From positions 1 to 38,647 of the forward strand of contig CAMATG010000006.1 of the NCBI GenBank assembly GCA_945860645.1: a stretch of 38,647 nt of DNA, read 5' to 3'. Origin of the DNA: Candidatus Sulfopaludibacter sp. SbA3 (GTDB lineage Bacteria; Acidobacteriota; Terriglobia; Bryobacterales; Bryobacteraceae). The notes under the pieces are model-generated. The model was given only the letters and a program-made list of their open reading frames with translations, did no database searches and was not told where the DNA came from. Below are positions 5,021 to 15,573 of this stretch, one piece after another; position 1 is the stretch's first letter, and the number at the start of each line of letters is the position of its first letter. Made by a program: the position numbers and the translations under genes.

Positions 5021-5063
5021 TGATACAATTCACCAACCCAACTACCTACTCGTTTAGGTGGGG
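5021..5063 (+). promoter_or_regulatory. Extended -10 promoter and RBS of the TonB receptor gene
   Basis: TGATACAAT at 5021-5029 fits an extended -10 element (TGN then TACAAT). A strong Shine-Dalgarno AGGTGGGG lies at 5056-5063, nine bases before ATG 5073. This decides the start: the GTG at 5058 used by the ORF track lies inside the ribosome-binding site. Confidence 0.5.
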
Positions 5064-5072
5064 TCTAAAACC

Positions 5073-8000
5073 ATGAAGAAACTCCAAGCGTTTATATTGG
5101 CAATGCTCGCCATGCCACTGCTTTTGTCGCAAACGTTTACCGGAACCATCTCCGGCGTTGTGACTGACCCGAATGCCGCCACCATTCCCGGATCAACCGT
5201 ACGGGTGCGGAATGAAGCCACCGGGGATACCCGGCAAGTGTCCACCGGTTCTGATGGGCTTTTTGTGTTTTCGCAATTGCCGCCGGGCGCCTATGAAGTG
5301 AGCGTGGAGAGCCGCGGCTTCCGGAAGAGTGTGCAGACGGGCGCCGCGTTGCGCGTGAACCAGACGTTGGAATTGAACTTCATCATGCAGCTCGGTGAAG
5401 TGAACCAGACGGTGGAAGTAGCCGCGGCGGTGACGCTGCTGGACACGCAGACGGCCAACCGGGCGGTGACGCTGGATCAGCAGGCGATGTTGGACCTGCC
5501 GACGAATGCGCGCAATCCGTTCCAACTCGTCCACGTGAACGCGGGGGTGATCGCGGTTCGCACGGGTATCTCCCAGGCCACGCAGGATCAGAATCACAAT
5601 CGGTTTTCGATGAACGGCGGGCGCGGGCAGGCCGGGCTGACGCTGATTGACGGCGTGCCGGCATCGGCCGTCGACTGGGGCGGGCTGATCGCTTCGCCGT
5701 CGGTGGATTCGGTGCAGGAGATGAACATTCAGCGGAATCAGTTTGACGCGCAGTTCGGTAAGTCGGACGGCTCGGCGGTGAACATGATTACCCGAGGCGG
5801 GTCGAACTCGTTCCATGGTTCGGTGTACAACTTTCTGCGCAACAACAATCTGGACGCCAATACGTGGGCAAACAACCGGTCGAACATCAAGCGGCCGAGC
5901 TTCCAGCGGAATCAGTTCGGCGGCACCTTTAGCGGTCCGATTTGGAAGGAGAAGAAACTGTTCTTCTTCACGGCCTACGAAGGCCGGCGCGAGGGCAACC
6001 CGGGCACCAGTATCACGAACGTGCCGACGTCGCTGCAGCGGTCGGGCGACTTCTCCGATACGCGAAACAATGCCGGCGTGCTCTCTCCGATTTTCGATCC
6101 GTTCAGCACCGTTCCCAATCCGGCGGGCGCTGGATTTGTCCGGACGCCCTTTGCGGGCAATCGGATTCCGTCGTCAATGTTCGACCCGGTAGCGGTGAAA
6201 GTGATGCAGCTCTTCCCGCAGGCGAATGCCACGCCGGACCCGTTTACGAATGCGCGAAATTTCGCGGCGGCAGGCAAAACGGTAACCACGAATGATCGCG
6301 TGGACCTACGCATTGACTGGGCGCGAAACGAGAAGATGACCATGTTCGGCCGCGTGACGAAGGCGTGGCAGGAAAACGTGGCGCCGAAGTATTTTGGCAA
6401 TGGGGCGGACACGAACTTCTCCGACGTCAATCCACGGCATCAGGTGGTGATCGGCACCACGTTGACGCCGACGCCGACGTGGGTGATCAACATTCTGGTG
6501 GGCTCTGGCCGCTGGCGCGAGAATCAGGTGTCGCCTTCGCAAGGGCTGAACGGAACCGCGCTGGGTTTCAGCGCCGCGACGGTTGGCCAGTGGCAGGCGC
6601 AAACCTACCCTGGGTTTTCGTTCCAGAATTACACCTCGCTCAACAACCGGCGTTTCCTGAACGTACCTCGGGAGACGCACAATCTGCAGGCCAATATTTC
6701 AAAGGAGCAAGGCTCGCACAGCTTGAAGTTCGGGTGGATCACGGAGTTGGCGCGGCTGAACAATACGGATTTCAATACGCCCACATTTTCCTTCGACCGT
6801 GGTATGACCTCGGGCCCGGTGGCGGGGCAGACTTCGACGACCTCCGGCGATGCGCTGGCATCGTTCCTGTTGGGAACGGGCGCCAGCGGCAGCGGGCCGA
6901 TTGGCGCGGCGACGGCGGTGACGGCGATGTACCACGGCGCCTACTTTCAGGACGACTGGCGTGTGAACCGGCGGCTGACGCTGCACATGGGAATCCGCTA
7001 CGAATTGCAGCAGGCGCGCACGGAGCGCTACAACCGCCAGAACAACTTCGATTTCAATGTCGTCAATCCGCTTTCGCAGCAGACGGGCTTGCCGTTGCGG
7101 GGCGGGTTGGTGTTCAACGACGGCAACAACCGTGGCGCGTGGCAGACGGACAAGTTGAACCTGGCGCCGCGCTTCGGCATGGCGTACAAGATCACCGATA
7201 AACTGGTGTTCCGCGGCGGCTACGGGATCTTCTACCCGCAGACAGGCGGCGGCACGCGTGACGGGTTTGCGACGACCACCACCTGGGTCTCATCTGTGGG
7301 CGGCGACGGGATCAATCCCAATCGCTCGGCGCTGTTGAGCAATCCGTTTCCCCAGGGGCTGTCGCAGCCGATCGGTTCGTCGCGCGGACTGCTGACACAG
7401 ACCGGCGACGCGGTGAGCGCGTTTTCGGCGCACCATCCGCTGAGCTACGTACAGAACTACTCGGCCGATTTCCAGTATGAAATCAGCCGCGGCATGGTGC
7501 TGGAAGTGGGCTACACCGGTTCGCAAGGCCGGAAGCTGTTATTCGGCACCGGGCAGCAGGCCAACCAGCTGGACCCGAAGTATTTCAGCCTGGGCGCCGC
7601 GCTGGATGCGCCGGTGGCGAACCCGTTCTTCGGCATCATTCCGACGGGTGTGCTGAGCGGACGAACCGTGCCGCAGCAACGCCTGCTGCGTCCGCATCCG
7701 CAGTTTACGGCGGTGAACCTTTCGGTGGACACGCCGGGCGCCAGTTCCGGGTTCAACGCACTGGTGATCCGCTACAACTGGCAGGTCTCCGGCGGCTTGA
7801 ATTTGCTGACGACCTATCAATGGTCGAAGGCGATTGATAACGCCAGCGAATGGCAGGGCTGGGAAGTGGCGGACACGCCGCGGAACTTCTACGACCTGAA
7901 GGCGGACCGGTCGATCAGTGCGCATGACTTGCCGCAGAGCTTTGTGAATGCGCTGGTGTACGAACTGCCGGTGGGCAAGGGGCGCAAGTTCGGCGCCGAT

Positions 8001-8480
8001 ATGCACCCGGTGGCCAACGCCATTGTGGGCGGCTGGCAGGTATCGTCCATCGTTCGCTTCGGCAGCGGTTTGCCGCTGGGTTTCACGTCGCCGAACACGC
8101 TGGGCAATTATGGCGTCCAGGTGCAGCGGCCGAATGTGGCCGACCTGAAGACGGCATCGGTTGAGAACCCGACGCCGGACCGGTGGTTTAACACGGCGGC
8201 GTTTACCGCGCCGTCCACCTACCAGATGGGCAACGCGCCGCGGTGGATTCCCAACATCCGCTTCGGTCCGACCAACCACGCCGATCTGGCCATCCTGAAG
8301 AACTTCCGGTTTATGGAGAGCATTAAGGCGCAGTTCCGCGCCGAGATGTTCAACTTCACCAACACGCCGCAGTTTGGCCGCGCCAGCACCACGGTCAACG
8401 ACCCGAACTTCGGCAAGGTAACCGGTACAACCAACATCGGGGCAAGGAACGTGCAGCTGGGTTTACGGCTGCAGTTCTGA
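5073..8480 (+). CDS. Oar-like TonB-dependent outer-membrane receptor
   Basis: The protein has 1135 residues from the ATG supported by the upstream SD. Signal peptide MKKLQAFILAMLAMPLLLSQ is followed by a carboxypeptidase-regulatory-like beta-sandwich (about 22-105: GTISGVVTDPNAATIPGSTVRV). Next come a plug domain (FSMNGGRGQAG..LIDGVPAS to the QFDAQFGKSDGSAVNMITRGGSN segment) and a long outer-membrane barrel ending in LGLRLQF, with the terminal aromatic typical of Omp85-inserted barrels. Oar-type receptors are greatly expanded in Acidobacteriota and presumably import large ligands such as oligosaccharides or peptides. The substrate cannot be read from sequence. The gene is monocistronic between its own promoter and a strong terminator, and is divergent from the kinase. 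Confidence 0.92.
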   Translation: MKKLQAFILAMLAMPLLLSQTFTGTISGVVTDPNAATIPGSTVRVRNEATGDTRQVSTGSDGLFVFSQLPPGAYEVSVESRGFRKSVQTGAALRVNQTLELNFIMQLGEVNQTVEVAAAVTLLDTQTANRAVTLDQQAMLDLPTNARNPFQLVHVNAGVIAVRTGISQATQDQNHNRFSMNGGRGQAGLTLIDGVPASAVDWGGLIASPSVDSVQEMNIQRNQFDAQFGKSDGSAVNMITRGGSNSFHGSVYNFLRNNNLDANTWANNRSNIKRPSFQRNQFGGTFSGPIWKEKKLFFFTAYEGRREGNPGTSITNVPTSLQRSGDFSDTRNNAGVLSPIFDPFSTVPNPAGAGFVRTPFAGNRIPSSMFDPVAVKVMQLFPQANATPDPFTNARNFAAAGKTVTTNDRVDLRIDWARNEKMTMFGRVTKAWQENVAPKYFGNGADTNFSDVNPRHQVVIGTTLTPTPTWVINILVGSGRWRENQVSPSQGLNGTALGFSAATVGQWQAQTYPGFSFQNYTSLNNRRFLNVPRETHNLQANISKEQGSHSLKFGWITELARLNNTDFNTPTFSFDRGMTSGPVAGQTSTTSGDALASFLLGTGASGSGPIGAATAVTAMYHGAYFQDDWRVNRRLTLHMGIRYELQQARTERYNRQNNFDFNVVNPLSQQTGLPLRGGLVFNDGNNRGAWQTDKLNLAPRFGMAYKITDKLVFRGGYGIFYPQTGGGTRDGFATTTTWVSSVGGDGINPNRSALLSNPFPQGLSQPIGSSRGLLTQTGDAVSAFSAHHPLSYVQNYSADFQYEISRGMVLEVGYTGSQGRKLLFGTGQQANQLDPKYFSLGAALDAPVANPFFGIIPTGVLSGRTVPQQRLLRPHPQFTAVNLSVDTPGASSGFNALVIRYNWQVSGGLNLLTTYQWSKAIDNASEWQGWEVADTPRNFYDLKADRSISAHDLPQSFVNALVYELPVGKGRKFGADMHPVANAIVGGWQVSSIVRFGSGLPLGFTSPNTLGNYGVQVQRPNVADLKTASVENPTPDRWFNTAAFTAPSTYQMGNAPRWIPNIRFGPTNHADLAILKNFRFMESIKAQFRAEMFNFTNTPQFGRASTTVNDPNFGKVTGTTNIGARNVQLGLRLQF

Positions 8481-8492
8481 TCCTCCGTCACG

Positions 8493-8530
8493 AATAAAAA
8501 CGGGCCTCCTTCGGGAGGCCCGTTTTTATT
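8493..8530. terminator. Bidirectional intrinsic terminator
   Basis: A perfect 17-bp stem, AATAAAAACGGGCCTCC with GGAGGCCCGTTTTTATT, encloses a TTCG tetraloop. A-run and T-run flank the GC core on both sides, so it can terminate the TonB gene on + and the converging JAMM-like gene on -. The TAA of the minus gene (8526-8528) lies inside the stem. Confidence 0.93.
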
Positions 8531-9443
8531 GCTCGAAGTGCTTGCGCATGGCGGTGACGGCGTCCTGCAGTTCCTTGTTGCGCTTGCGCAGATTGAGGAC
8601 TTCGGCGCGCAGGCCGTTGTCCTGTGGTGGCGGTTGGGCGATGACGGGGTCGAACCCAACATAGGTGGTGGAGCGCGAGAGGCGGGGTCCGCCGGCGTAC
8701 TGCACGTTGAGGGTGACGATGATGGTGCTGGTGCGCGGGCGCAGGACGACGCGGCCCTGGGCGGTGAAGGTGGGCGTGATGTCCATGGTCTGTTCGCTTT
8801 CCCCGTCCTGGATGGTGAGCGCGGCCGACTGCAGCGGCTGCGCCAGGACCCCGTGTTGCTGCCAGATGGCGGCGAGTTCGCCGGAGCGGGACTGGACGTC
8901 CAAGGCGAGTTCGGGCGACGGGTTAACGGTCCTCGCATAGTAAGCGGCGCCCACGGCGGCGAGGGTGAGGATCAGGCCGACAGCCAGCCAGGGCAGGCGT
9001 GGCGACGCCGTGCGAACGCGCGGGACGTGCGCCGCCGCCGGGGTGAGCGGCGCCATCAGGGAGAGAGCTTCGCTGGTTGCGTGCCCATCGGTGGTGGGCC
9101 GGCAGACGAGGGCATCACTGGCCGCGCCGTTGACCGCGTTGAGCAGCAGGAAGAGCGGCTGCGTTTGGCGGCAGAGTTCGATTTCCGAGGCGCGCAGCGC
9201 GGGCGCATCGGGCGTTTGCAGGCGGAAAAAGCCGGCGAGTGCGGGGCCAGCGGCCTGGGCCGCCTGGCGCAACGCGTTGGGCTGAACCCGTTTGAATCCG
9301 GTGATGTGCGTAACGCCGTTTTCCGATGAGCCCAGCAGGATGCCGCCCGATTCCTCCTGGCGCGGGATGGCACGCAGGCGGCCCTGTACATATGGGTGGA
9401 TCGCCACCGTGGGTTGAGTAGAAATTACCGTTTTCGGACGCAT
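8526..9443 (-). CDS. Membrane protein with degenerate JAMM/MPN domain (copy 1)
   Basis: The protein has 305 residues. Residues about 10-120 look like a JAMM/MPN domain: HPYVQGRL, then EESGGILLG as the family's E..GG.L.G strand, then GFFRLQTPDAPALRASEIEL where an active enzyme has GWYHSHT....LS..DL. Both histidines and the aspartate of the zinc motif are replaced, so isopeptidase activity should be lost. A membrane helix follows at about 150-168 (LPWLAVGLILTLAAVGAAYYA). Beyond it lies a 90-residue beta-rich domain with TIIVTLNVQYAG and ending TTYVGFDP, then a coiled-coil tail (NLRKRNKELQDAVTAMRKHFEQ). SD GAGGGG lies five bases before ATG. It follows a homologue by 83 bases in the same direction. 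The JAMM reading is by eye and the role is unknown. Confidence 0.7.
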   Translation of the reverse strand: MRPKTVISTQPTVAIHPYVQGRLRAIPRQEESGGILLGSSENGVTHITGFKRVQPNALRQAAQAAGPALAGFFRLQTPDAPALRASEIELCRQTQPLFLLLNAVNGAASDALVCRPTTDGHATSEALSLMAPLTPAAAHVPRVRTASPRLPWLAVGLILTLAAVGAAYYARTVNPSPELALDVQSRSGELAAIWQQHGVLAQPLQSAALTIQDGESEQTMDITPTFTAQGRVVLRPRTSTIIVTLNVQYAGGPRLSRSTTYVGFDPVIAQPPPQDNGLRAEVLNLRKRNKELQDAVTAMRKHFEQ

Positions 9444-9526
9444 AGTACCCCTCTTTTGAGGAGGTGCAACTGGATTGCCAATTGCCAGCGGCGCCAGCCC
9501 GGCCTGCTATGCGTGCGAGGACTTGT

Positions 9527-10414
9527 TTACGAGGCTCTCTTTTTGGTGAAATCCACGGCCCTGGGCGCCGGCCGTTTGGGACTGAAGCCGACGTAGATGG
9601 CGGTGTTCGAAAGGGGAGCTACGCCGCGGTACTGCACGTTGAGCGTGACGATGACATCGCGGCCGGTGGGACGGATGACCAGATGCCCCTTGGGCGAGTA
9701 ACGCCGTGTCAGGTCGATCGTCTTTTCCTTTCCGTCCTCACTCACCAGCAGGGAGGCAGATTGCAACTGCTCCGCCGGCACGCTGGATTGCTCCCATCTG
9801 GCGGTCAATTCCGTGTCTCGCGCCTGGAGATCCAGCGCCAGCGCAGGGGGCGGCAGGGCCGGATTGATCTCTTGATAACACCACGCCGTGGCGACGAGGG
9901 TGAACAGCACGGCAGTGGCGGCCGGCACCCATTTGGGTGGAGTGGGAAACTTGATCCGGAGGCGCGGCACGGCTACGGCGGCTGGCTGCGCGGCCGCCGC
10001 CGGCGGGGGTGTTTCCTCCAGGAGCGAGATCTTCTCCTGCGTCGGGGGGGCATCGCCCTCCCGGGTCCAGACCTGCGCCGATGTACCGATCCCCTCGACG
10101 ACCTGGATCAGCAGAAACACGCTGCGTCCGTGCGGGATGATTTGGCGCCAAAGTTGCTCCTCTTCCGGCTGGAGCGTGGTCATTCCCGGAGTTTGTACCC
10201 GATAGAAGCCAATGAGCTCCGGGCCGGCCGCGTTGGCCGCCTGCCGCAACGTACTGCCGGCCAGTCGCTTAAAACCGGTGATTTGTACGGCGGGCCCGTC
10301 CGCTGTGCCCAGCAGAACGCCGCCCGCTTCATCCTGGCGCCGTTGGAGTCGCAGGCGCCCTTTCACATAGGGGTGTATATCGAGGTCGAGAGCAACCGAG
10401 CGAACAGCTTCCAT
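9527..10414 (-). CDS. Membrane protein with degenerate JAMM/MPN domain (copy 2)
   Basis: The protein has 295 residues and the same order of parts as the next gene. HPYVKGRL and DEAGGVLLG are followed by GFYRVQTPGMTTLQPEEEQL in place of the GWYHSHT....LS..DL metal motif. A proline-rich linker, a membrane helix around 172-190 (VPAATAVLFTLVATAWCYQ) and a beta domain with DVIVTLNVQYRGVAPLS and AIYVGFSP complete it. The coiled-coil tail of copy 1 is absent. AAGGAAG lies about nine bases before ATG 10414. It is transcribed away from imuA across a shared 182-base control region. The two copies are tandem duplicates that have diverged well but conserved the same loss of metal ligands. Confidence 0.7.
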   Translation of the reverse strand: MEAVRSVALDLDIHPYVKGRLRLQRRQDEAGGVLLGTADGPAVQITGFKRLAGSTLRQAANAAGPELIGFYRVQTPGMTTLQPEEEQLWRQIIPHGRSVFLLIQVVEGIGTSAQVWTREGDAPPTQEKISLLEETPPPAAAAQPAAVAVPRLRIKFPTPPKWVPAATAVLFTLVATAWCYQEINPALPPPALALDLQARDTELTARWEQSSVPAEQLQSASLLVSEDGKEKTIDLTRRYSPKGHLVIRPTGRDVIVTLNVQYRGVAPLSNTAIYVGFSPKRPAPRAVDFTKKRAS

Positions 10415-10572: not shown

Positions 10573-10591
10573 AGGCGAACAAAAGGCGAAC
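10573..10591 (+). promoter_or_regulatory. Direct-repeat operator, LexA-box-like
   Basis: AGGCGAAC occurs twice, 11 bases apart, giving GAAC-N7-GAAC at 10577-10591. This equals the GTTC-N7-GTTC LexA operator known from Alphaproteobacteria. It sits between the predicted transcription start and ATG 10597, ahead of a cassette that is LexA-controlled in other bacteria. That this organism's LexA reads the box is inference, as no lexA gene is in the window. Confidence 0.6.
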
Positions 10592-10596
10592 CTGAG

Positions 10597-11241
10597 ATGT
10601 CGTTGCCGTTACGGAAGTTGATCGATTTAGCCTCACCGCGGCCCCTGGTTTCGACGGTGTGTCCGTTTACGCCGAAGGATTTGCGGGGCGTGCTGCCGGG
10701 GTTCCCGGAGGGGGCGATAACGGAGATCAGCGGCGTGCGTTCGTCCGGTCGGACGACGATGTTGCAGGCCAGCCTGGCGGCGGCGACGGGGCTGGGCGAA
10801 CTGTGCGCGGTGGTGGACGGGAGCGACGCGTTTGACCCGGCGTCGGCTGCGGCGGCCGGGGTGCGGCTGGAGCGCTTGTTGTGGGTGCAGTGCCACCACG
10901 ACGTACAGGACACGTTGAAGGCGGCGGATCTGATTCTGCATGGCGGCGGGTTCCGGCTGGTGGTGTTGGACCTGTGCGACCTGCCGCCGGTGGAACTGCA
11001 GCGGGTGCCGCCGGCGTGGTGGCACCGGTTGCGATTGTCGGTGGAGAAGACGCCGGGGGTGCTGTTGGTGACCTCCACGGCGCCATTGCTGCGGCAGGCG
11101 GCGGCGATGCAGGTGGAGTTGGCCGGGGCGCAGGCGCAATGGCCGGGAACGCTGTTGGCCAGCGTGGACCTGCGGGTGCGGTTGCGGAAGCCGGTGCAGG
11201 CGGCCGGGGCGGCGGCGACGCTGCGGGCGCGGGCGGTTTGA
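10597..11241 (+). CDS. imuA: ImuA-like RecA-fold protein of the mutagenesis cassette
   Basis: The 214-residue RecA-fold ATPase-like protein has GVRSSGRTT (about 46-54) at the Walker A position, with arginine in place of the usual lysine as is common in ImuA. A Walker B-like strand LVVLDLCDLPP follows. It heads imuA-imuB-dnaE2, the SOS mutasome in which ImuA and ImuB deliver the error-prone polymerase DnaE2 to damaged DNA through the sliding clamp. It starts six bases after the direct-repeat operator, and no good SD is seen (CCTGAG). imuB follows after 10 bases. Overall similarity to ImuA is loose, so part of the call rests on position. Confidence 0.8.
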   Translation: MSLPLRKLIDLASPRPLVSTVCPFTPKDLRGVLPGFPEGAITEISGVRSSGRTTMLQASLAAATGLGELCAVVDGSDAFDPASAAAAGVRLERLLWVQCHHDVQDTLKAADLILHGGGFRLVVLDLCDLPPVELQRVPPAWWHRLRLSVEKTPGVLLVTSTAPLLRQAAAMQVELAGAQAQWPGTLLASVDLRVRLRKPVQAAGAAATLRARAV

Positions 11242-11251
11242 GAGCACGATT

Positions 11252-12508
11252 ATGTTTGCCTGTCTGGTATTGCAGCGCGGGGCGGTGGATGCGTTATTGA
11301 CGCTGATCGACGAGTTCTCGCCGCATTGGGAACGGTGCGACGAGCGCACGGTGCTGATCCCGGCCTACGGGCTGGAACGGCTGATCGGGACGCCCACCGA
11401 TATTGCGGAGGCGGTGTTGCGGCGCGCTGGGGCGTTGGATATCGAGATCTCGCTGGCGATCGCCGGGCATCCGGATACGGCGCTGCTGGCGGCGCAGAAT
11501 ATTGAAGGCATCACGATTATCGACGCGGGCCGGGAGGTGGAGATCCTGGGGCCGTTGCCGTTGGAGATTCTGCCCACGACGATGGACGTGCTGGACACGC
11601 TGCAGCGCTGGGGCGCGGAGACATTGGCCGATTTCGCGGCGCTGCCGCCATTGGGCGTCATCGAACGCCTGGGGGATGAAGGCGGGCGGTTGCAGGCGCT
11701 GGTGGAGGGGCGGGGAACGCGCCCGCTGCGCATTGCGCGGCCGCCGGAGGACTACACGAAAGAGATGCATCTGGACGAGCCTCTGTCCAATTCCGAGCCG
11801 CTGCTGTTTGTGATCTCCGGAATGGTGCACGACATCGTGAAACGGCTGGCTTCGCATGGCTTGGCGGTGAGTGAATTTCGCGGGACGTTCGGCACGGCAC
11901 ATGCCATGCGCATTGCGTTTCCGATGCCGGTGCAGGAGCCGCTGGTGATCTTGAAACAGGTGCAGCTGGACCTGGAGGCGCACCGGCCGCGGCGGGCGAT
12001 TTCGACGGTGCTGGTGGAGTTGCAACCCACGCCGCCGCGGGTGACGCAGCACGGGCTGTTCACGCCGTCGGCACCGGAGCCGGCGCAGTTGCAGACGCTG
12101 CTGGCGCGGCTGCGGGCGGTGGCGGGGGCCGATAGTGTGGGTTCGCCGGAGTTGTTGGACACGCACCGGCCGGATGCCTGGCGGCTGCGGCAGGACGTGT
12201 TGTTCGCGGCCGGGCGTGTGACGGCGGATGACGACGCGGCGGTGCACCTTTCGTTCCGCTGCTTTCGGCCGCCCCTGGGCGCGCGCGTGGCGATTACCCC
12301 GCAGCACCGGCCGTCGCGCGTGGAGGCGCGCGGGGTGAGCGGGCGAGTGGTCTCCTTGGCCGGGCCATGGCGCACGACGGGGGACTGGTGGCGGGACACG
12401 GCGTGGGCTCGGGATGAGTGGGACGTGGGCCTGGAGGACGGGGCGTTGTACCGCGTGTACCGGGAGCACGGCACGAACGAATGGTTCGTGGAGGGGGCCT
12501 ACGACTGA
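11252..12508 (+). CDS. imuB: ImuB-like, catalytically dead Y-family polymerase
   Basis: The protein has 418 residues. Its N-terminus (MFACLVLQ...) is the Y-family palm start, but the metal-binding aspartates are missing. The usual LD.SG segment reads VLIPAYGLERLIG, so no polymerase activity is expected. A helix-hairpin-helix stretch (TLADFAALPPLGVIERLGDEG) and a little-finger-like part follow. ImuB proteins act as adaptors between the clamp, ImuA and DnaE2. GAGAG upstream is a fair SD. The TGA overlaps the dnaE2 ATG by one base (TGATG), so translation is coupled. Confidence 0.87.
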   Translation: MFACLVLQRGAVDALLTLIDEFSPHWERCDERTVLIPAYGLERLIGTPTDIAEAVLRRAGALDIEISLAIAGHPDTALLAAQNIEGITIIDAGREVEILGPLPLEILPTTMDVLDTLQRWGAETLADFAALPPLGVIERLGDEGGRLQALVEGRGTRPLRIARPPEDYTKEMHLDEPLSNSEPLLFVISGMVHDIVKRLASHGLAVSEFRGTFGTAHAMRIAFPMPVQEPLVILKQVQLDLEAHRPRRAISTVLVELQPTPPRVTQHGLFTPSAPEPAQLQTLLARLRAVAGADSVGSPELLDTHRPDAWRLRQDVLFAAGRVTADDDAAVHLSFRCFRPPLGARVAITPQHRPSRVEARGVSGRVVSLAGPWRTTGDWWRDTAWARDEWDVGLEDGALYRVYREHGTNEWFVEGAYD

Positions 12509-15500
12509 TGTTGCTGCCGGAGTTGCGGGCGCGGTCCGCATTCAGTTTTCTGGAAGGGGCCAGCCTGCCGGAGGCGCTTATCGCGCAGGCGGCGGAGTTG
12601 GGCATTCCGGCGGTGGCGCTGCTCGATCGGGACGCGCTGTCGGGCGCGGTGCGTTTCCACAAGGAAGCGAAAAAGCGGGGGATTCGTGCCTGGATCGGGG
12701 CGGAGATCACGGCGACGGAGGGGTTCCGCTATCCGCTGCTGGCGGCCACGCGGGAGGGGTACCAGAACCTGTGCCGGCTGATCACGCGGGTGAAGCTGGA
12801 GAAGCGCGCGGCGCACTTTTCCGATATCGAGGAATACGCGGCGGGGCTGGTGTGTCTGGCGTCGGACCCGCTGGCGTGGGCTCTCGATCAAGGCACAGCG
12901 CCGGCGATGGTGGATAAGCTCCGCGGCGTGTTTCCCGATGGCCGCGTGGTCATCGATCTGCAGCGCCATTTTCTGCGGGAGGAGGAGGCGCGGAACCAGA
13001 CGTTTCTGCAGATGGGGTTGCCCGTTGTGGTGGCGAATGGCGTGAGCCACGCCACGCGCGAGGAGCGGTCGCTGATGGACGTGTTGACCTGCGTGCGGCA
13101 CCACACCACGATCGATGACGCCGGTCGTTTATTGGCGCGGAATTCGGAGCGATTCTTTAAACCGGCGCGGCAGATGCAGGCGCTGTTCGCCGATATGCCG
13201 CAGGCGCTGGATGGAGCGCGGGCGTTGGGGGAACGGTTGGAATTTACGTTGGAGGACCTGGGCTATCAGTTCCCGCGCTACCCGGTGCCGGCGGGCGAGA
13301 CGATGGACAGTTTTCTGTGGAAGCGCACGTTTGAAGGGGCCGAGCGGCGCTATCGGCCGATGTACGAGAAAGCCCGGCGCCAGTTGGAACGGGAGCTGCG
13401 GCTGATTGAAAAGTTGGAACTGGCCGGGTACTTCCTGATCGTCTGGGACATTGTGGAGTTCTGCCGCCGGGAAGGGATCATGGTGCAGGGCCGCGGGTCG
13501 GCCGCCAATAGCGCCGTCTGTTATTCGCTGGGGATCACGGCGGTGGACCCGGTGGGGATGGAGTTGTTGTTCGAGCGGTTCCTCTCCGAAGAGCGCGGCG
13601 AGTGGCCGGACATCGATTTGGACCTGGCCAGCGGGGATCAACGCGAACAAGCCATTCAGTATGTCTACGCGCGCTACGGCCGGCTGGGCGCGGCGATGAC
13701 GGCGAACGTCATCACCTATCGCGGGCGGTCCGCTGTGCGGGACGCGGGCAAGGCGCTGGGGTTTTCTGAAGAGCAGTTGGGCCGGCTGTCGAAGCTGGTG
13801 GGCCGGTGGGGCGACGACGAGGGGCTGGCCGAACGGATGGAGACAGCCGGAGTGACGGCCGATCATCCGCGGGCGAAGCATCTGGCGGCCATGGTGCAAG
13901 GGTTTCTGGAGTTGCCGCGCCACCTGGGCCAGCACTCGGGCGGGATGGTGATTTGCGAGGGGCAACTGGATTGCATCGTGCCCCTGCAACCGGCGTCGAT
14001 GCCCGGGCGCGTGATCGTGCAGTGGGACAAGGAAGACTGCGCCGACATGGGCATCATCAAGGTGGATCTGCTGGGGTTGGGGATGATGGCGGTGTTGAAG
14101 GAGTCGCTCGATCTGATCCGGGTGCACTACCGGGAGGACGTGGATCTGGCGTTGATTCCGAAGGACGATCCGGTGGTCTACGACGCGCTGCAGCGGGCCG
14201 ATACGATCGGCATGTTTCAGGTGGAGAGCCGGGCGCAGATGTCGTGTCTGCCGCGGATGCGACCGGAGAATTTCTACGACATTGTGGTGCAGGTGGCCAT
14301 CATCCGGCCGGGTCCGATCGTGGGCAACATGCTGCATCCGTACCTGCGGCGGCGGCAGGGGATGGAGGCGCCGGTGAGTCTGCATCCGTCGCTGGACGAG
14401 GTGTTGAAACGCACGATGGGCGTGCCGTTGTTTCAGGAGCAGCTGTTGCGGATGGCGATGATCGCAGCCAATTTCACCGGGGGCGAGGCGGAGGATCTGC
14501 GGCGGGCCATGGGGTTCAAACGCTCGCAGAAACGGATGGCGGAGGTGGAGGAGCGGCTGCGGAAAGGGATGACGGCGAATGGGATTCTAGGCGCGGCGCA
14601 GGACGCGATTGTGCAGTCCATCACGGCGTTCGCGCTGTACGGATTCCCGGAGTCGCACGCGGCCAGTTTCGCGCTGTTGAGCTACGCCAGCGCGTACTTG
14701 AAGGAGCATTATTTGGCGGCGTTCACGGCGGCGATTTTGAACAACCAGCCGATGGGATTTTATAACCCCATGACACTGGTGAAGGACGCGCAGCGCCACG
14801 GGCTGCGGGTGTTGCCGGTGGATGTGACGGTGTCCGATTGGCTGTGCACCTTGGAGGCGCGGGACGGGGCGCTGTGCCTGCGATTGGGGTTGAACTATGT
14901 GAAGGGATTGCGGCAGGCGGTGGCGGAGGCACTGGTTGCGGCGCGGCCGTTTGCGAGTATCGATGAGTTGAAGCGGCGGGTGCCGGCGGTGTCGAAGGAG
15001 GAGATGTACCGGTTGGCGGAGTTGGGGGCGTTCAACCGGATTGGGGGCTCGGTGCAGCGGCATCGTAGGGATGCGGTGTGGCAGGCGAGCCTGGCGGCGC
15101 GGCCGTCGGGGCCGTTGTTTGACGCGGGTGGCGATGCGCCGTCGCCGCTGGCGCCGATGGAGGATCTGGACCGACTGCAGGCCGATTTCCGGAACAGCGG
15201 ATTGTCGATCGGGGCGCATCCGATGCGGTTTGCGCGGGAGCGCTTGGACGCGCAGGGCGTGTTGCGAGCGGGGGATTTGTGGCGTGTGGGGAATGAGCGG
15301 TTTGTCCATGTGGCCGGGTTGGTGATCTGTCGGCAGCAGCCGTCGACGGCGAAGGGGTTTGTGTTCTTGAGCCTGGAGGACGAGACGGGGATTTCGAACA
15401 TCATCGTGCCGCCGAAGTTGTTCGCGGAGGTGCGGACGACGGTGCTGCAGCACTCGTATTTACTGGTGGGCGGCGTGCTGCAGAATCAGAGCGGGGCGAT

Positions 15501-15573
15501 TTCGATCCGGGCGCGGAAGGTGGGGCCGGTGCGGAATGCGCAGGTGGCGGTGAAGTCGCATGATTTTCATTAG
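12508..15573 (+). CDS. dnaE2: Error-prone DNA polymerase III alpha subunit DnaE2 (ImuC)
   Basis: The protein has 1021 residues from the ATG that overlaps the imuB stop. The track's start 30 codons earlier lies in imuB and is rejected. The N-terminal PHP domain begins ELRARSAFSFLEGAS and contains LLDRDAL. Metal-binding histidines of active PHP domains (H.H and DHD) are replaced, so intrinsic proofreading is unlikely. The C-family polymerase palm follows, with the catalytic pair in PDIDLD (D368, D370) and conserved GRGSAANSAVCYSLGIT and HLGQHSGGMVI. A C-terminal OB-like domain (HVAGLVICRQQPSTAKGFVFLSLEDETG) ends the protein. DnaE2 carries out damage-induced mutagenic synthesis. Its last four bases overlap the end of a converging small gene. 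Confidence 0.95.
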   Translation: MLLPELRARSAFSFLEGASLPEALIAQAAELGIPAVALLDRDALSGAVRFHKEAKKRGIRAWIGAEITATEGFRYPLLAATREGYQNLCRLITRVKLEKRAAHFSDIEEYAAGLVCLASDPLAWALDQGTAPAMVDKLRGVFPDGRVVIDLQRHFLREEEARNQTFLQMGLPVVVANGVSHATREERSLMDVLTCVRHHTTIDDAGRLLARNSERFFKPARQMQALFADMPQALDGARALGERLEFTLEDLGYQFPRYPVPAGETMDSFLWKRTFEGAERRYRPMYEKARRQLERELRLIEKLELAGYFLIVWDIVEFCRREGIMVQGRGSAANSAVCYSLGITAVDPVGMELLFERFLSEERGEWPDIDLDLASGDQREQAIQYVYARYGRLGAAMTANVITYRGRSAVRDAGKALGFSEEQLGRLSKLVGRWGDDEGLAERMETAGVTADHPRAKHLAAMVQGFLELPRHLGQHSGGMVICEGQLDCIVPLQPASMPGRVIVQWDKEDCADMGIIKVDLLGLGMMAVLKESLDLIRVHYREDVDLALIPKDDPVVYDALQRADTIGMFQVESRAQMSCLPRMRPENFYDIVVQVAIIRPGPIVGNMLHPYLRRRQGMEAPVSLHPSLDEVLKRTMGVPLFQEQLLRMAMIAANFTGGEAEDLRRAMGFKRSQKRMAEVEERLRKGMTANGILGAAQDAIVQSITAFALYGFPESHAASFALLSYASAYLKEHYLAAFTAAILNNQPMGFYNPMTLVKDAQRHGLRVLPVDVTVSDWLCTLEARDGALCLRLGLNYVKGLRQAVAEALVAARPFASIDELKRRVPAVSKEEMYRLAELGAFNRIGGSVQRHRRDAVWQASLAARPSGPLFDAGGDAPSPLAPMEDLDRLQADFRNSGLSIGAHPMRFARERLDAQGVLRAGDLWRVGNERFVHVAGLVICRQQPSTAKGFVFLSLEDETGISNIIVPPKLFAEVRTTVLQHSYLLVGGVLQNQSGAISIRARKVGPVRNAQVAVKSHDFH

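Follow-up and report, generated by a model that had tools for sequence, protein, structure and literature searches.

The best-known pseudo-MPN proteins belong to eukaryotic complexes such as the proteasome lid, the COP9 signalosome, and eIF3. The MPN-minus subunits Rpn8, CSN6, eIF3h/f, and Abraxas retain the MPN fold, have lost the zinc ligands, and act as non-catalytic scaffolds, as soluble members of large complexes. Archaeal Rpn11/JAMM1 (PDB 6fjv and 5lda) and the bacterial Prok-JAB proteins are active zinc enzymes of the same fold, carrying the motif H-S-H-P...D. The tandem gene pair described here, A and B, resembles the MPN-minus subunits, which are among its top Foldseek matches, in combining the fold with lost zinc ligands, but encodes stand-alone bacterial single-pass membrane proteins with a fibronectin-III-like (fn3-like) domain. 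With Rpn11/JAMM1 and Prok-JAB, its nearest solved relatives by profile, the pair shares the fold and the motif frame, whereas its own motif reads R-L/V-Q-T-P...E.

Membrane-anchored HxHP JAMMs of other Acidobacteriota (loci L082, L083, L085, L087, and L088) likewise comprise a JAMM domain, a linker, and one hydrophobic helix, here C-terminal; unlike the pair, they keep an intact HSHP/HTHP catalytic motif, and no fn3-like domain was recognised in them by eye. They are possibly the active ancestral type. Some relatives of A and B resemble the TonB family energy transducers in ending with a TonB_C domain after the fn3 domain, whereas the window proteins lack TonB_C and have a large, putatively cytoplasmic MPN domain ahead of the transmembrane (TM) helix. 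We regard A and B, with reasonable though far from full confidence, as tandem paralogues specific to their genus, within a Bryobacteraceae (Acidobacteriota) family of pseudo-JAMM proteins that cross the membrane once, a grading given jointly with the tether reading set out below.

Architecture of the tandem pair

The window, that is, the whole 38,647-nucleotide stretch of DNA analysed, corresponds to contig C6 of an acidobacterial genome of 6.53 Mb in 857 contigs. The features of the two genes, all on the minus strand, are as follows.

8526..9443, minus strand: gene A, pseudo-JAMM (MPN), TM, fn3-like, and coiled-coil parts in that order (305 aa; open reading frame)
9060..9395, minus strand: A, predicted MPN-fold domain, residues 17-128 (AlphaFold model, Foldseek, column counts)
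8925..8990, minus strand: A, predicted TM helix, residues 152-173 (AlphaFold model and hydropathy; positive side towards the N-terminus)
8658..8912, minus strand: A, fibronectin-III-like seven-strand domain, residues 178-262, predicted periplasmic (AlphaFold model, Foldseek; topology from TonB_C fusions in relatives)
8532..8618, minus strand: A, predicted C-terminal coiled coil, residues 276-304, containing LRKRNKELQ (AlphaFold model)
9527..10414, minus strand: gene B, paralogue of A lacking the C-terminal coiled coil (295 aa; open reading frame)
10025..10372, minus strand: B, predicted MPN-fold domain (AlphaFold model, pLDDT 86.1, pTM 0.81; Foldseek)
9875..9931, minus strand: B, predicted TM helix, about residues 162-180 (hydropathy)
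9581..9853, minus strand: B, putative fn3-like domain (alignment to A and to the family)

The two proteins are paralogues with 46% identity over 262 aa; orthologues of A were found in four genomes of the genus and those of B in two. The first-pass annotation of this DNA had recognised JAMM framework motifs in both copies, together with TLNVQY and YVGF strands and an added membrane helix and beta domain. The framework motifs (EESGGILLG/DEAGGVLLG and GFFRLQTP/GFYRVQTP) and both strand motifs are indeed present in the translations, and a single TM helix and a seven-strand beta domain are predicted.

Evidence for the MPN fold

Taken as single sequences, A and B gave no Pfam match, JAB (PF01398) and Prok-JAB (PF14464) included, no NCBIfam family match, and only weak JAB matches in PADLOC (E 0.03-0.06). 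The JAB/MPN relationship emerges through the family. The window clade aligned with the wider family in hhalign at 98.4% (E 7e-15), and 26 of 50 aligned family members match Pfam JAB at E ≤ 0.1 (best 5.9e-9). Three intact-motif relatives (L012, L057, and L178) exceed the curated JAB cut-off, L012 with 27.6 bits (cut-off 22.5) and L178 with 36.2 bits. A family profile built from 11 MPN regions matched archaeal Rpn11 (PDB 6fjv) at E 1.3e-6, all 16 of its PDB matches being MPN-type; the window-clade profile alone, too shallow for this purpose, returned only Abraxas 2 (E 0.44).

Structure prediction agrees with these comparisons. The AlphaFold model of A (pLDDT 80.9) comprises an MPN domain, a TM helix, a seven-strand sandwich, and a coiled coil, and the Foldseek matches of its first domain include Rpn11/Rpn8 and P. 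furiosus JAMM1. For the MPN domain of B, ranks 1-31 of the Foldseek search against the PDB are all MPN-type (BRCC36/Abraxas, Cap3, Rpn11/Rpn8, eIF3, and CSN). The N-terminal domains of A and B are thus, by modelling and profile comparison, predicted MPN folds. It had been proposed that homologues with an intact H.H motif would mark a different family; such homologues exist, but inside the same family, and their membership strengthens the assignment.

The degraded zinc site

The site of a JAMM metalloprotease (MPN+) reads E...H-S/T-H-P...S/T-x2-D. In its place, A has E31, R74, L75, Q76, T77, P78, and E87, and B has the equivalent residues, so that H-S-H...D becomes R-L-Q...E in A and R-V-Q...E in B, the upstream glutamate being kept. 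The positions, assigned in A from column counts and all on the minus strand, are as follows.

9351-9353, minus strand: A, E31, the kept Glu
9222-9224, minus strand: A, R74, first-His position
9216-9218, minus strand: A, Q76, second-His position
9183-9185, minus strand: A, E87, Asp position
10328-10330, minus strand: B, E29, the kept Glu
10199-10201, minus strand: B, R72
10193-10195, minus strand: B, Q74
10160-10162, minus strand: B, E85

On this sequence evidence, the zinc site of both proteins is degraded. The first-pass annotation was right in reading arginine and glutamine at the H-S/T-H positions, but the Asp position, which it had listed among the lost ligands, holds a glutamate that is not clearly a non-metal residue. 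Across 48 homologues, the glutamate equivalent to E31 and the aspartate at position 87 (Glu in A and B) are invariant, the first-His position is occupied by Arg in 36, His in 8, and Leu in 4, and the second by His in 39 and Asn in 9. Among the 96 proteins scored at the first-His position out of 100 in the family, Arg occurs in 74, His in 14, and Leu/Val in 8; the arginine is hence conserved rather than drifting.

A wider family in the Bryobacteraceae

Four groups of family members can be distinguished: group I with an intact WYHSHTRS motif, group II with W(F/Y)(L/V)SHTRS, the core group III with R(S/G)(H/N)TR, and group IV, the window clade. In the tree, the Arg forms (III and IV) split once from the His forms with a support of 100/100, and canonical HxHP JAMMs of other Acidobacteriota, when added, group with I and II on the His side; the window clade is a long branch whose exact place within the Arg group is unsure. 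Should the intact motif be ancestral, the tree gives a single origin of the His-to-Arg change, ancestral to the core and window copies, and a stepwise loss of the zinc site: Arg replaced the first His at the root of the core family, Glu then took the place of Asp in the window clade, and Gln that of the second His in the pair itself. Group II lost its first His independently (His to Leu/Val). The earlier argument, which took a common loss in two diverged copies as a sign of selection, is accordingly not supported: the His-to-Arg change goes back to the ancestor of all core members, and both genes inherited the loss rather than acquiring it through parallel selection.

The MPN profile matches 231 of 237 Bryobacteraceae-type (Acidobacteriota) genomes and 37 of 396 in a phylum-wide draw, many of the latter being ordinary JABs on inspection. 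The named loci belong mostly to Bryobacterales, Bryobacteraceae, Solibacter, or unclassified Acidobacteria MAGs; two records titled Bordetella parapertussis (L138) and Arcobacter (L156) also carry the acidobacterial family and are probably mislabelled MAGs. The intact pattern W[YF]H[ST]HTR occurs in at least 67 of the 237 genomes, a lower bound as the exact motif was required, and in none of 19 genus genomes, the source genome included. One genome (G019) carries intact, first-His-less, and Arg forms together. The core copy has Arg in place of the first His in every member seen, and in 53 loci its gene stands next to rsmI in divergent orientation.

The search for further copies in the source genome was fruitful, yielding a core copy on contig C150, beside rsmI, and a degraded relative on C220. 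The latter (C220:3564-4157, L003), like L010 and L022, is further degraded, with W-S-I/L-H/R-R in the H.H region, but retains the TM helix and fn3 domain. The search for active paralogues returned no intact family motif in this genome and one ordinary JAMM (HSHPDCDAYFSKTD). Its gene lies on contig C109 (G000; L075 1016-1615) between cysteine synthase and MoeB-like E1 genes, an arrangement like that of the cysteine biosynthesis operon which Iyer et al. 2006 (PMC1779556) list for Solibacter; the passages found in that paper name Solibacter only for the JAB/cysteine synthase operon and a Ubl-Mut7-C fusion.

The first-pass annotation knew of no described family with this architecture, and no named family was found in Pfam, NCBIfam, or PADLOC; a literature search likewise found no paper describing a membrane-anchored pseudo-JAMM family. 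The family is larger than the window pair and, apparently, undescribed.

Selection

Pairs of close orthologues give dN/dS values (Nei-Gojobori) of 0.14-0.20 for A and 0.13 for B. By part, it is 0.02-0.13 in the MPN domain, 0.05-0.19 in the fn3 domain, and mostly 0.4-0.8 in the linker and TM helix (0.17 in one B pair), and purifying selection on the MPN domain is strong. It is these values and the near-universal presence of the family, not the shared loss, that demonstrate selection for retention. As in MPN-minus scaffold proteins, the fold is kept, the catalytic residues are lost, and the genes are retained by selection. The A orthologue of G004 (L004 1501-2415) has an in-frame TAA five codons before its end, a minor truncation.

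Gene neighbourhood

The tandem is flanked by a convergent gene for a CarboxypepD_reg/OMP_b-brl_4 outer-membrane protein (5058-8480) and by a divergent imuA-imuB-dnaE2 cassette (10597-15573), which was recognised by an NCBIfam error-prone polymerase match of 1160 bits and by RecA/ImuA-like and Pol IV-like matches. The earlier description of the pair as lying beside the mutasome genes is true of this locus, but the core copy lies beside rsmI and other genes intervene in relatives of the genus. A functional link was rejected as other genes separate the A and B orthologues from imuA in G005 and G014; proximity to the mutasome genes is incidental. Immediately ahead of the imuA start is a GAAC-N7-GAAC direct repeat (10577-10591), the only such site in the window, identical in form to GTTC-N7-GTTC, the LexA box known from alphaproteobacteria. 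An SOS link through this repeat was also considered and set aside, the site not being seen near imuA in related loci.

No partner genes were found in the neighbourhoods of A/B orthologues or core loci, and no adjacent E1, E2, or Ubl genes among the window ORFs read or the most recurrent neighbours of 80 loci. The gene neighbourhoods as a whole pointed to no pathway, and neither did the neighbours of intact forms (a YCF48-like protein, a PAS histidine kinase, and DUF1501).

Membrane topology and the beta domain

The beta domain of A matches integrin beta-4 fn3 in Foldseek and is predicted to be a fibronectin-III-like sandwich. The ubiquitin-like fold once suggested for the pair is rejected for this domain, its Foldseek matches being fn3 sandwiches. 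An excess of Lys/Arg lies on the N-terminal side of the TM helix in 76 of 100 family proteins, with the reverse in 5. The Pfam domain TonB_C (PF03544) is C-terminal in five relatives (L016, L218, L219, L220, and L221), and exceeds the Pfam cut-off in relatives of G019, G020, and G027; A and B have no Pfam match to it, and the core copy also lacks it. From the charge bias and the C-terminal TonB_C of relatives, we infer a cytoplasmic MPN domain and a periplasmic fn3 domain. Among the proteins with an fn3-like module and TonB_C, L016 and L218 show an MPN motif and L219 its glycine motif only, whereas none was seen in L220 or L221, so that the fn3-TonB part may also stand by itself.

Proposed role and alternatives

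Taken together, the fixed arginine, the kept glutamate, the strong constraint, and the topology are best read as those of a module that is anchored in the inner membrane and binds rather than catalyses. We consider it fairly probable that A and B are membrane tethers in which a cytoplasmic pseudo-JAMM pocket binds a partner and is coupled to the periplasm. The MPN domain would not hydrolyse isopeptide bonds; going by conservation, the former active-site pocket, with its invariant Glu and its new conserved Arg, would instead bind a peptide, a C-terminal tail, or a partner protein, and the TM helix would couple this binding to the envelope. The pair would then act like an MPN-minus scaffold subunit (Rpn8, CSN6, or Abraxas) bolted to the inner membrane, a design to which some relatives would add the TonB C-terminal domain.

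Alternatively, the pseudo-JAMM may pair with an intact family member and control an active JAMM at the membrane, in the manner of Rpn8-Rpn11, CSN6-CSN5, and Abraxas-BRCC36. The co-occurrence of all three forms in G019, the intact motif in at least 67 of 237 genomes alongside nearly ubiquitous core Arg forms, and the BRCC36/Abraxas heterodimer chains topping the Foldseek matches of B are in its favour, yet the genus has retained A, B, and the core copy with the intact family motif in none of its 19 genomes, and the only intact JAMM found in the source genome is of soluble type, in a cysteine-synthase/MoeB operon; we hold it to be unlikely. Equally unlikely is an atypical TonB-type energy or signal transducer, whose periplasmic fn3 arm (sometimes with TonB_C) would be under cytoplasmic pseudo-JAMM control and act on outer-membrane receptors such as the 5058-8480 neighbour. 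It would account for the TonB_C relatives of G019, G020, and G027, and elsewhere in the genus the CarboxypepD_reg/OMP_b-brl_4 neighbour also adjoins orthologues of A; TonB_C is, however, absent from A, B, and the core copy, and such outer-membrane proteins are commonly numerous in genomes of this kind, which makes the adjacency weak evidence.

Still less probable is a cryptic enzyme, in which the altered site binds metal through Glu/Gln (E31, E87, and Q76) and catalyses a different hydrolysis. E31 is invariant, position 87 holds Asp in each of the 48 other homologues and Glu in the window pair, most core members retain the second His, and there is a precedent in eIF3f, an MPN protein with a non-canonical motif for which deubiquitinase activity is reported (PMC2990700). 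Against this, the positive charge of the arginine replacing the first zinc-ligand His is unlikely to tolerate zinc, and both window proteins have Gln for the second His. Decay into functionless pseudogenes, to which the lost catalytic residues, the confinement of A and B to part of the genus, and the in-frame TAA in the G004 orthologue might point, is very improbable and was rejected on dN/dS (0.13-0.20 overall and 0.02-0.13 in the MPN domain), the frames being open in several species.

Significance

The non-catalytic tether thus remains the preferred reading. As a more speculative extension, to which we give only limited credence, the family could form a hitherto undescribed system for signalling or tethering across the envelope, present in nearly all Bryobacteraceae: a catalytically dead deubiquitinase-fold domain would sense a cytoplasmic ligand with its Arg-substituted pocket and so drive a periplasmic fn3/TonB-type arm. 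Membrane-anchored bacterial pseudo-JAMMs, with their intact relatives, stepwise loss, and fixed His-to-Arg change, offer a clean test case for the passage of a deubiquitinase fold into a non-enzymatic binding module. A protein carried by nearly every genome of an abundant family of soil bacteria thereby gains a name and a testable anatomy, that of a "dead" JAMM form probably kept for a binding job.
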